From positions 1-20,181 of the IMG/VR virus record IMGVR_UViG_3300048837_000239: a DNA stretch of 20,181 nt. One strand, written 5' to 3'. Shown piece by piece: positions 2,284-15,690 of this stretch. This DNA is from a virus. The translations under genes and the position numbers were made by a program. The notes beneath the pieces are model-generated. The model did not search any database and was not told where the DNA came from. It saw nothing but the letters and a program-made list of their open reading frames with translations. Within the stretch, counting starts at the first letter, position 1. Every line of letters begins with the position of its first letter.

Positions 2284-4856
<2,573 letters not shown>

Positions 4857-11270: not shown

Positions 11271-14200
11271 ATGCCTCCCAAGAAATCCATACCGGCCCCG
11301 ATCGACAGACCGCTGTCAAAGGCGTATCTACGTCAGTTCTCCGGTTGGTCCACCGCGTACCCGCCCGGATTGTCTGACCCCACATCATGCCGTGACATGC
11401 AGAACGTGATGGTGGATCGCAGCAAGGGGATCTCGGTGCGCCCGGGGTTGCGGTATGTGTCCTACACCGACACCCCGGACATGCATTACGACGAGGTCGC
11501 TGTCCCTGGCGTTGCGTTCAACCGCCCGATGGTCGGATCGATAGAGCCGTTCTACCTGCATGACGGGTCGAAGGCATTGCTGTTCGCATGCCGTGAAGAA
11601 GACGACACCGTGGGTTTCAGGGCGATGCTGTTCACCGACCCGAACCAGATCGTCTACAACATCACTGACACGAAGATCGGGTTCTACATCCCCCAGGGTG
11701 TATCAACACTGAACTTCTCGAGCGCCACGAAACATGTGTCGTACTTGCAGATCGACAACAAGATCATGGCTTTGTCCGATGCAGGCGAATCGATACGGCT
11801 GTTCTCCGTGGGAGCGGAGAAGGTCGCCAAGCGGATGAACTCGATCACTGCACCGGAGTGGGAAGACTCTCACAAGCTAACTGTCATGCACCCTGAAGCC
11901 GCGTGGATCTCGAAGCTCGGGTACACGATTCGGCGTAATGAGCTGATCAACCCCAGCTTCGAGGCGGGAACCGCTGGCTGGACGAAGGGTTCGACAACTG
12001 CATGGGCTGTGTCCAGAACAGAGTCACAACCAGCAGGCGGCACTTCTCTTCGAGTGTGGACTGCTCCCCTGCGCACAAACCTTGCCACCTCACCATTGCA
12101 CAACGTATCCGCGACAGGTATCGAAGGATGGCATTCCGGCCTGGGGGATCCTGTCCTGTATGGCGCAGGAGATGATCTGCGGATCTACGATGAGAAGGGC
12201 ACGAATGTCTTTCTCGCCCGCAGCGCGAAACTGGCTGGCATCGAAGAGGGCCGCAAGTACCGAGTAGCCTTTGATTTCACTCTAGCCACTGACACCGTGC
12301 TGCGAGTGCGACTGCAGTTCTACCGGAACAACGGCTCCCCCATCGGGGATCCCATCAAGTTCTTTCCGGACAAACGCTCCGGACGCTATGAGACCCCGGC
12401 TATCGAAGCACCCAGTAATGCGGTGACCGCCCGGATCCTCATCGGGGGAGACAGTACGAAGAAGAAACAGTCGTGGGTCCGTGTTCGCAATGTGGTGCTG
12501 TGTCGGGCGAATGAGTCGACAGACATGTTCTCCGGAGCTTCCGGCACCGGGTATTACTGGACTGGCACGGCCAACCAGTCCACGTCGGTGTACTGGCCGA
12601 ACCAAGACATCACGATTGTGGCGGCCCGTGTCAGTGTGGTTCCCGGCCGCCCTGTCACGAACAGTATGCATGTCAAGTCTCTTAACGGGGTGGCGAAATC
12701 CGTTAAGATCCAGGCGTTCATCTACAACCAGCACGGGGCGGAACTCGGCTACACCGAACACACCGCCTCATCAGGCACCGGAACGTGGGAGCGGAGCAGT
12801 GTGTCTACCCTTCCCTTGTTGAACGGTGTCGCCGCTGGGCTGCAGATCACCATCAGCGATGTCGGCCCGAACCAGGTGTTCGCTCTTGACGGTGGGATGA
12901 TCGAGTCCGATGCTGGAACGCTCGGCACCTACTTTGACGGTTCCACTCCCAGCACCACGCAGACGGTGCATCAGTGGGAGAACCCATTGGTTGCGCACCT
13001 GTCACCCAGCATTCTCACCAGGACCGTCGACCCTACTGCGATCCCGACACCGGAGACCCCGACTACGAATACTGTGATCTCGTCGGCCGCGACCGACACC
13101 AACAAGTACAAGATGGGCTTCTTCTACACGTTTGAGAATGAGATCGGGGAATCGGCCCCGTCGAAGATTACAGAGGTCCGCATGATGCGGCCCCAGTCGA
13201 ACTGGTTGTGGCAGACGGCCAACAGCAATGGTGAGCCGAGCGGTACGAAGACGGAGGTTGCGGATCTCTGCGCCGACCAGCTGGTGGCAGTCGTTCCCTC
13301 CGATGTCTACAACAAGGCTCTGCAGTCCGGGGCGATCAAATGGAACCTGTATACGTTCTCCTGGTCCGATCAGGATCCCGTCCCAGTGGAAGCCCAGTGG
13401 GTCGGGTCACGCGAGCTGCACCCGGATCAGGCGTCACGACTGTCGGGCAATGCCCTGCCGTACGAAAAAGGCGGCTGGATCAACATCACTCCGAGCCGGC
13501 GTTTCTCTTTGGACTCGCAGATGTTGCCGACCAAGGACAATCGGACGAACTACTCGCACCCTCCGAAGGCCAGTGCCGGGATTGTCGCAGCCGATAGGAT
13601 CGTCCTGGTCGGAGATGCCGAAAACCCCGGTGCGATCCGTTGGACGTCGAACCGTCCTGGTGAGTACACCAAGTTCACAGCCGGTAAGGGTGGCGGGGTC
13701 AAGACGCTGTCCTCGGGAAACCTGCACATCCCCGGAACGGTGGTGCTGTGGCAGAACCCGCAGTCTGTGGACACGTTGACGATCCTGTGCGTCGGTAGTG
13801 ACGGCACGTCGATCTGTTACTACATGATGCCGGCCGACGTGAACGCTCAGACCGGCTCGGCGCAGGTAATGGGGTTCGAGGAGACGACGAACACGCCAGG
13901 GACGATGGCTCCGTTCGGTGCACTCGTGCATAACAACGCCTTGTACCGGCCTATCGATCGTGCATTGCTGAAGTCCACGGCGCAAAACTACAACATCAAC
14001 CACAAGTCCATGTCGGATGACATTTCCAACATGTGGGAATCGTTGCAGTCGAAGAACTGGATCATGAGCGCTGTCCATGACAACCGGTTGTACTTCCTGG
14101 TGAATAACCCGTTGGGTATTCCGCTGGAAGAGGGTTGTCACGGTAACGAGATCTGGGTGTACGACACAGCCGGGGGGGAGTCCGGCACCTGGTCACGGTT

Positions 14201-14813
14201 CCTCATCCAGGCGACAGCACTGCGTGTCATCGAGTACGGCTCCCGTGTGTACGTCGGCGTGATCCGTCCTGATGGTGCGTACTACCTAGACCCCGACGCT
14301 CGCCAGGACGATTACGTCTTGGAAGACGGGACTGTCGGGCAGCGGCCCATCCCCTGGTTCTTCGAGACGAACACCCAGGGTGCCAACCGTGCTCACGATG
14401 CCTGGGCTCACCTGCAACAGGTGTCTGTGATGTTCGGCGATTTCAGTGGAGCCATGCGGTACGGAATCCGCGGTCGCACAGTGAACGGGCAGAACGTCAG
14501 CATCGAGAAGCAGTTTGAGGATCTGACTCCTGACAGGTCCACCTCGATGTCGTGGGACGTGGAAGATCATCTCCTGGTGCGCCGGGATATGAAGGAGTGG
14601 TACTTCTTCGCTGGCAACGTGGAGGGGAAAGCCGGCTCAGGATCCATTTGCCATGTGCAGTACCGCTACACCCCGGTCACGGTGAACGTGGGCTACGAGT
14701 ATGGCAGCATAGAGACCTTCGAGTACGGCAAGAATGTGCTGGAAGGTGCCGATGTCTACTCCACAAACGGCATCCCAAGGCCCGTACAGGACATGGAGTG
14801 GGAGCGCACGTAG
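11271..14813 (+). CDS. Tail nozzle, T7 gp12-like (tail tubular protein B), with inserted domains
   Basis: This 1180-residue protein is a probable tail nozzle, which in T7-like phages forms a hexameric tube below the adaptor. Residues 1-220 (RPLSKAYLRQFSGWSTAYPP, MVDRSKGISVRPGLRY) and about 605-1180 (FYTFENEIGESAPSKITEV, SRRFSLDSQMLP, beta-propeller-like repeats) look like the nozzle. Residues 221-572 are extra: one carbohydrate-binding-like jelly roll (221-264 plus 443-572) appears split by a second (266-442). Both end in an F-x-G...W motif (F420 to W430 and F555 to W569). T7 gp12 is about 790 residues, so the excess matches the insert. AGGAG at 11262-11266 supports ATG 11271. The stop lies inside the repeat element that follows. 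Confidence 0.78.
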   Translation: MPPKKSIPAPIDRPLSKAYLRQFSGWSTAYPPGLSDPTSCRDMQNVMVDRSKGISVRPGLRYVSYTDTPDMHYDEVAVPGVAFNRPMVGSIEPFYLHDGSKALLFACREEDDTVGFRAMLFTDPNQIVYNITDTKIGFYIPQGVSTLNFSSATKHVSYLQIDNKIMALSDAGESIRLFSVGAEKVAKRMNSITAPEWEDSHKLTVMHPEAAWISKLGYTIRRNELINPSFEAGTAGWTKGSTTAWAVSRTESQPAGGTSLRVWTAPLRTNLATSPLHNVSATGIEGWHSGLGDPVLYGAGDDLRIYDEKGTNVFLARSAKLAGIEEGRKYRVAFDFTLATDTVLRVRLQFYRNNGSPIGDPIKFFPDKRSGRYETPAIEAPSNAVTARILIGGDSTKKKQSWVRVRNVVLCRANESTDMFSGASGTGYYWTGTANQSTSVYWPNQDITIVAARVSVVPGRPVTNSMHVKSLNGVAKSVKIQAFIYNQHGAELGYTEHTASSGTGTWERSSVSTLPLLNGVAAGLQITISDVGPNQVFALDGGMIESDAGTLGTYFDGSTPSTTQTVHQWENPLVAHLSPSILTRTVDPTAIPTPETPTTNTVISSAATDTNKYKMGFFYTFENEIGESAPSKITEVRMMRPQSNWLWQTANSNGEPSGTKTEVADLCADQLVAVVPSDVYNKALQSGAIKWNLYTFSWSDQDPVPVEAQWVGSRELHPDQASRLSGNALPYEKGGWINITPSRRFSLDSQMLPTKDNRTNYSHPPKASAGIVAADRIVLVGDAENPGAIRWTSNRPGEYTKFTAGKGGGVKTLSSGNLHIPGTVVLWQNPQSVDTLTILCVGSDGTSICYYMMPADVNAQTGSAQVMGFEETTNTPGTMAPFGALVHNNALYRPIDRALLKSTAQNYNINHKSMSDDISNMWESLQSKNWIMSAVHDNRLYFLVNNPLGIPLEEGCHGNEIWVYDTAGGESGTWSRFLIQATALRVIEYGSRVYVGVIRPDGAYYLDPDARQDDYVLEDGTVGQRPIPWFFETNTQGANRAHDAWAHLQQVSVMFGDFSGAMRYGIRGRTVNGQNVSIEKQFEDLTPDRSTSMSWDVEDHLLVRRDMKEWYFFAGNVEGKAGSGSICHVQYRYTPVTVNVGYEYGSIETFEYGKNVLEGADVYSTNGIPRPVQDMEWERT

Positions 14814-14912
14814 TCGGTGTAGTCACTGTAGTCACCCCATTTCTAAACTTTTTGTGCGACATATGGTGTAGAAGTTTCCAAAACAGGTGACTACACTGAC
14901 TACAGTGACTAC
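14810..14912. repeat. Palindromic array of six GTAGTC nonamers
   Basis: Two 27-base arms (14810-14836 and 14886-14912) are inverted repeats matching at 24 of 27 positions. Each arm is three nonamers: GTAGTCGGT, GTAGTCACT, GTAGTCACC on the left, and GGTGACTAC, ACTGACTAC, AGTGACTAC on the right. The 49-base centre is AT-richer, with a smaller inverted pair AAACTT (14845-14850) and AAGTTT (14872-14877) and CATATG at 14860-14865. The nozzle stop TAG is part of the first nonamer. Candidate roles are a replication or regulator binding array, a recombination site, or a long RNA hairpin ending the upstream transcript. No T run follows. Confidence 0.9.
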
Positions 14913-14952: not shown

Positions 14953-15690
14953 ATGTCCACTGCTGAGAAGGCAGCCCTCTACAACGAACTGAAGGCGTCG
15001 GGGCTAACCCCTACCCAGCCGTATCGCAACTACACCGTGGCACAGCTCAAGGCTGAGCTGGGGAGGGTAGAGACGCCCCCGGAGCAGGCCGAGGACCAAT
15101 CACCCTCCCCCGAGTTCTTCGGGCTTCCTGAGCCTGCTCCTGCCCCGGCAACGGTGCCATCTGAAGAGCGCTCCATCCCGCGAGCCAGCGAACCTGATCC
15201 TGACGAACTGCCCGGTCAGCGGCTTAACACCCTGGCACCTGACGATGTGATCCGGGTTGACGAACAAGGCCGCAAGTGGCACCAGGAGGAGGTGCGCAAA
15301 CCTTCATACCCGAAGCCCCGTGGCCGGCGTGTTCTCAAATACATGGATACCGGGGTACGCACGGAGACAGTGCAGAACGGTGAGTACGTCGAGACCTTCG
15401 AGGTTTCCGGTGACCAGGCCCAACGCCCGGCCGAGGTGAAGATCACCCTGCCCTCGTATCAAGTCGGTATTTACACCGACCCCCGCTTTCCGTTCAAGAT
15501 CCATTGCTACGACGGACGGGAAGGTTTCAACCGCACTGATGTGCAAGCGTATTACGGGGGCAGCGAGCTGGTCCCTGACACCATCAAGCGGGTCTACGTC
15601 GAGAACGATCTGTGCTACGACATCCGATCCGTGATTCGCACCATCCAGGCCGAGCACCGGCACCTTCAACTGACAGGAAAGATCAAGTGA
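14953..15690 (+). CDS. Unknown protein with HeH/LEM-like N-terminal helix motif (245 aa)
   Basis: The ATG at 14953 has GGGAG (14944-14948) four bases upstream. Residues 6-37 contain two helices ending YTVAQLKAELGR, similar to the small HeH/LEM or SAP-like motif that binds nucleic acid or protein. A Pro/Glu-rich linker spans about 40-90. The C-terminal domain (about 95-245) is mixed alpha/beta, with a Tyr/Phe-rich core (VGIYTDPRFPFKIHCYDGRE) that I cannot place in a family. The gene ends in a GTGA overlap with the next. It is the first gene after the nonamer palindrome and may open a separate transcription unit. Function is unknown. Confidence 0.8.
   Translation: MSTAEKAALYNELKASGLTPTQPYRNYTVAQLKAELGRVETPPEQAEDQSPSPEFFGLPEPAPAPATVPSEERSIPRASEPDPDELPGQRLNTLAPDDVIRVDEQGRKWHQEEVRKPSYPKPRGRRVLKYMDTGVRTETVQNGEYVETFEVSGDQAQRPAEVKITLPSYQVGIYTDPRFPFKIHCYDGREGFNRTDVQAYYGGSELVPDTIKRVYVENDLCYDIRSVIRTIQAEHRHLQLTGKIK

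Follow-up and report, generated by a model that had tools for sequence, protein, structure and literature searches.

The element described here is a 103-bp palindrome in the main intergenic gap of a virus record of the IMG/VR database (IMGVR_UViG_3300048837_000239), the whole of which, 20,181 bases, is referred to below as the window. The genes of the window match those of the EK-type podophages of Microbacterium and Arthrobacter (Burrovirus, Akonivirus, MissAmericana). The genomes of these phages, of about 54 kb, comprise two halves: early functions and replication (primase-polymerase (prim-pol) gp2, helicase gp3, Pol I) run leftward, and the late half, which opens with a 13-kb gene, runs rightward. 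The position of the palindrome is between the nozzle gene (gp45 homolog) and the gp46-terminase genes, some 3.3 kb before the terminase gene; it splits the late region, as a preliminary description made from the sequence alone had pointed out (Table 1). Our analysis suggests that it is probably an iteron array that forms all or part of a replication origin of the type used by Staphylococcus aureus pathogenicity islands (SaPIs) and other phage-inducible chromosomal islands (PICIs), and bound by an SF3 helicase of the phage.

Table 1. Features at the palindrome and its neighbouring genes (positions in the window)
Feature	Position	Strand	Remarks
Upstream gene, nozzle protein homolog (MissAmericana gp45)	11271..14813	+	TAG stop 14811-14813 in first iteron
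Left arm	14810..14836	+	three tandem iterons GTAGTCGGT, GTAGTCACT, GTAGTCACC
A+T-rich centre, 49 nt, proposed melting region	14837..14885		contains AAACTT/AAGTTT and CATATG
Right arm	14886..14912	-	three inverted iterons, minus strand: GTAGTCACT, GTAGTCAGT, GTAGTCACC
Downstream gene, gp46 homolog	14953..15690	+	followed by late genes gp47, gp48 and large terminase

The limits of the palindrome, its two arms and its six GTAGTC nonamers were found exactly as first described, together with the symmetric features of the centre and the stop codon built into the first nonamer. Of the 27 positions of the arms, 24 are complementary; when the right half of the window was shuffled 25 times by a Markov model, the best local inverted repeat of 27 nt had a lower score, 17-22. 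A repeat finder also placed the palindrome first among the inverted repeats of the window, with 41-nt arms at 80%, and its single-strand fold is very stable (z = -4.7; none of 200 shuffles was equally stable). Each of the six nonamers, read on its own strand, starts with GTAGTC, and five contain an exact GTAGTCA, a word found six times in the whole window (1.86 expected), five of them inside the palindrome. The centre is 63% A+T, versus 41% for the window.

A related genome of 54,143 bases (G002), which matches much of the window at 91-99%, carries this element too and has another, larger one in the divergent gap between early and late genes. Among EK-type contigs, arrays occur at two places only, 20-35 kb apart, namely the nozzle/gp46 gap and this early/late gap next to the tape-measure gene, with few or no extra copies per genome. 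In a sample assembled independently of the motif, by a terminase search that retrieved 38 EK-type contigs spanning the nozzle/gp46 gap, at least three GTAGWCA words were present in this gap in 29 contigs; inspection revealed arrays of shifted iterons in L378, L379, L387, L396, L400 and L404, and no array was seen in the gap of L372, L382 and L432. Both loci of one genome carry the same iteron variant, which differs among genomes (GTAGTCAC, GTAGACAC, GCAGTCAC or CTAGTCAC): GTAGTCA in G001, G002, G007 and G008, GTAGACA in G038 and G042, GCAGTCAC in G043 and CTAGTCAC in G046. That loci 20-35 kb apart change together points to a single protein that recognizes the two of them.

The copy in the window represents the simple form of the element, with the central unit alone, versus the composites frequent in EK-type phages. 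Such a composite consists of outer iterons, a small hairpin, CGCAGGTCAGAGGC and inner iterons around an A+T-rich centre, followed by the mirror image of this arrangement. In the small hairpins, pairing reaches 72-84% at the first two positions inside the iterons (39-52% expected), which suggests that hairpins may form there, and little compensatory pairing extends beyond the iterons in the central hairpin. Boxes of the CAGGTCAGAGG type form an inverted pair between the hairpins (L008:3049-3304, L309:12000-12300 and other composites) and are possibly a second binding site. The two sites of G008 (L031 and L056) have part of their centre in common (AAGACCCCTATAnTnACTACT), in opposite orientation. 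A 58-bp non-coding stretch with the hairpin CGCTTGCGCTCAGGCTACTGAGCG (L223:5474-5531; at 18.7 kb in Arete), close to the iteron array of the early/late gap, is 88-91% conserved among otherwise diverged EK-type phages.

The preliminary description had also surmised that similar palindromes occur in other Gram-positive phages and in chromosomes. Three pattern scans of IMG/VR, needed because short iterons and variable centres escape BLAST, returned 98, 90 and 93 stretches with the exact pattern, where a few inverted patterns would be expected by chance according to our rough estimate. They correspond to 163 loci and at least 120 distinct inverted GTAGTCAC arrays, at GC contents of 29-67%, so that they are not limited to high-GC or Gram-positive hosts; the first half of the surmise is thus borne out. 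A phage unrelated to the EK type (L309) even carries the same composite, with CAGGTCAGA boxes, 138 bp past its helicase gene. Over 74 arrays, the centres are 66% A+T versus a contig mean of 45.5% (p ~3e-13). The second half found no support: among the matches listed, those in bacterial genomes were nearly all single and chance-like, without an inverted partner. The one good bacterial case is an inverted GTAGTCAC array on a Deltaproteobacteria contig from a metagenome-assembled genome (L172:3148-3252), probably a prophage or island because the array sits at an SF3 helicase gene. A few viral matches (L250, L286, L276 and L330) may be due to chance; they fall within coding sequence or belong to 190-kb phages in which no helicase was detected. 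BLASTN of the 103-bp element or of a composite against annotated phages and plasmids gave nothing useful, and a literature search on the iteron motif yielded only unrelated papers among the matches listed.

In phages outside the EK type with a recognizable helicase, the neighbour of the array is an SF3 (VapE/DUF5906/D5) primase-helicase gene, annotated as DNA primase/helicase in PHROGs and with VapE-like, DUF5906, D5_N, PriCT_2 and Prim-Pol domains in Pfam. We grouped these helicases into 16 clusters with less than 45% identity to each other and retained one representative array for each. In 15 of them the array lies at most 710 bp from the helicase open reading frame, in 12 of these 15 at most 180 bp away and mostly past its 3' end (usually by 2-180 bp), whereas in the largest cluster (DUF5906 helicase) the distance is about 0.3-2.7 kb. 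The combined probability of this adjacency (Fisher) is ~7e-7, a conservative local estimate. Several phages outside the EK type also have two sites, 9-12 kb apart, of which the second adjoins terminase genes (L066 group). Cultured VapE phages (S. aureus JS02, Paenibacillus Bloomfield and Pd_22F, Bacteroides Bacuni_F1, Streptococcus 315.6) present inverted arrays of their own iterons in a 280-370-bp gap past the helicase gene. In cultured EK phages, different repeats occupy the early/late gap (GGTAACG in Arete, TCGTTAC in MissAmericana, CGGTTCG in Zhengyi). The architecture is therefore general, with GTAGTCAC as one dialect. In the records seen, the large inverted arrays located 3' of VapE helicases (L354:3418-3762, from JS02; L353, L355, L356 and L361) bear no origin annotation.

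The window record stops short of gp3, and the evidence on this helicase comes from EK-type relatives (G002 and other contigs). In these relatives gp3 is an SF3/D5-type helicase related to the SaPI Rep protein, the SaPI5 primase-helicase being its best match both by sequence (7OLA, E=4e-10) and by structure (Z 26.8). Its predicted structure combines a well-predicted AAA+ core with a C-terminal helical domain containing a beta hairpin (pLDDT, the predicted local distance difference test, 87), which we read as a putative winged helix. Between iteron types, the core keeps 53-69% identity but the C-terminus drops to 11-32%; C-termini of the GTAGTCAC type are 36-56% identical to one another, and those of MissAmericana and Arete, which both have GTAAC-type repeats, 47%. 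The C-terminus co-varies with the iteron (partial Mantel r=0.28, p=0.021, 19 phages), also when three cultured phages are added (r=0.60, p=0.0002), in a test that is small and relies on iteron assignments made by hand.

All this gives strong comparative support to the iteron-like character on DNA that was first perceived in the palindrome. In the mechanism that we infer, gp3 (DUF5906), together with the prim-pol gp2, would bind the GTAGTCAC iterons through its C-terminal winged-helix-like domain, and the oppositely oriented iteron sets would place two helicase rings face to face across the A+T-rich centre. ATP hydrolysis would then melt this centre, possibly with the arms extruded as a hairpin, before the prim-pol primes and the forks leave both ways. 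The early/late gap would probably be the main origin, and the nozzle/gp46 array a second origin or an auxiliary site comparable to crr of phage P4. In P4, ori and crr are two separate iteron loci, and alpha is a multifunctional primase-helicase with a C-terminal winged helix. EK-type genomes likewise have two separate loci with the same iteron, but the iteron and the type of primase differ from those of P4, and at each of the two EK-type loci the iterons form an inverted array around an A+T-rich centre.

The closest parallel is provided by the origins of SaPIs and other PICIs (SaPIbov1, SaPI5, EcCICFT073), whose two iteron sets, located 3' of the initiator gene, flank a region rich in A+T (PMC6092414, PMC7581432). 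Beyond the kinship of gp3 with SaPI5 Rep, the element of the window may be viewed by analogy as a putative origin working like theirs, though the helicase gene is not its neighbour in EK-type phages. In contrast to these islands, the carriers are tailed phages, each genome of the EK-type lineage has two loci distant from the gene of its helicase, and the iterons are strictly inverted, partly extended into hairpins and accompanied by accessory CAGGTCAGAGG boxes. In the plasmid pRN1, a stem-loop of about 100 nt located 3' of a prim-pol/SF3/winged-helix protein is needed for replication, and a similar one was proposed, as a prediction only, for the Bordetella phage BIP-1 (PMC4234260). Our element resembles these systems by its large predicted stem-loop, but the origin of pRN1 is devoid of iterons and specific binding was not observed (PMC4234260). 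The predicted stem of the window palindrome is stable, and in the arrays pairing beyond the iterons is strong in the small hairpins and weak in the central ones. The D5-family helicase Cch2 of the staphylococcal cassette SCCmec binds direct repeats downstream of its gene through its C-terminal domain (PMC7581432). It differs from our case by its iteron (AAGTG), by the few copies present and by binding that needs direct, not inverted, repeats.

Several observations weigh against this interpretation. In EK-type phages gp3 lies 8-12 kb from the sites, unlike the other groups, rather than directly upstream of them, and no SF3 helicase is detectable in two array-bearing records, G010 (47 kb) and G029 (33 kb). 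Cultured EK phages have no iteron array at nozzle/gp46, so that this copy is not essential for the lineage. GC skew, which was not decisive, is unchanged at this copy and changes at the early/late gap, where transcription also diverges; the window copy may thus be a secondary site. The small hairpins keep pairing past the iterons, which a pure binding-site model does not need. Finally, our tests use related sequences, and their p-values are approximate.

Other functions have to be weighed against an origin. The arrays could be operators, at which a phage transcription factor would occupy the GTAGTCAC sites of two promoter regions (the early/late gap and the head of the gp46-terminase operon) and switch late transcription. 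Both EK-type sites are located where transcription units start, the second site of the L066 group adjoins terminase genes, and a concerted change of iterons suits any trans-acting binder. We nevertheless regard an operator as unlikely, as it predicts neither the proximity of SF3 helicase genes, mostly at their 3' end, in many unrelated phages, nor the co-variation of the helicase C-terminus, nor A+T-rich centres between inverted sets, and no sigma-70-like promoter was found at the element. The terminase genes downstream of the window copy, like those adjoining the second copies of the L066 group, would also suit a site for partition or packaging (pac-like), to which another protein of the phage would bind; but the second EK-type copy in the early/late gap, the helicase neighbours in other phages and the inverted symmetry around an A+T-rich centre leave this very little credit. 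A T7-like RNA polymerase promoter, suggested by ACTATAGG in some centres, was not general and was dropped.

An action at the RNA level, with a long transcript hairpin that would terminate, protect or process late mRNA, is in our opinion quite improbable. The long RNA hairpin envisaged in the preliminary description is borne out as a predicted fold of great stability, with the upstream stop codon inside it and small hairpins that pair beyond the iterons. Nevertheless, no intrinsic terminator was found, as the hairpin lacks the U-tract that should follow a GC-rich stem, and no Rfam match exceeded the gathering score. Moreover, all iteron copies change together, including those of the other, distant locus, and the central hairpin shows little compensation beyond them. 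The occurrence of one motif across unrelated phages could evoke a mobile palindromic repeat spread by a transposase without phage function, similar to repetitive extragenic palindromic (REP) sequences or miniature inverted-repeat transposable elements, and REP sequences contain a GTAG tetranucleotide, as does the iteron. This was rejected as highly implausible because positions are fixed across diverged phages; the concerted sequence change, the near absence of extra copies per genome and the rarity in chromosomes, among the matches listed, also contradict it. An attachment-site reading of the palindrome was set aside.

The preliminary description saw an element with no known function, which can now be replaced by the specific hypothesis of a putative replication origin. 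To our knowledge, replication origins are not known for most tailed phages. The architecture itself is known; what is new is its spread through tailed phages and the two-locus layout with one copy inside the late operon, to which can be added a repeat common to unrelated phages and comparative evidence for an apparent co-evolution of repeat and initiator. It is tempting, though still speculative, to suggest that lytic EK-type podophages replicate from two SF3-helicase origins that co-evolve at a distance of about 20-35 kb, with one in the late operon. The initiator and its iterons would drift in step and thereby form a specificity code that can be read, and since many unrelated phages have the GTAGTCAC dialect of this code, origins and initiators might cross-talk, or might pass from one phage to another during infection of the same cell. 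If an origin function is correct, a simple signature, namely inverted iterons that flank an A+T-rich centre and in most cases come after the 3' end of an SF3 primase-helicase gene, would locate the origins of a large share of the phages with helicases of this kind, and iterons and helicase C-termini, through their matched variation in nature, would make initiator-origin recognition directly testable. It would also contradict a 2018 statement confining this origin architecture to phage-inducible islands, and one initiation system would link lytic phages, satellites and plasmids.

Two further observations concern the phages themselves. The EK-size podophage Birdfeeder is reported to have a circularly permuted genome (PMC9584313). 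In the window, positions 2637-4856 contain a tail-fibre-like open reading frame with Gly-X-Y collagen-like repeats.
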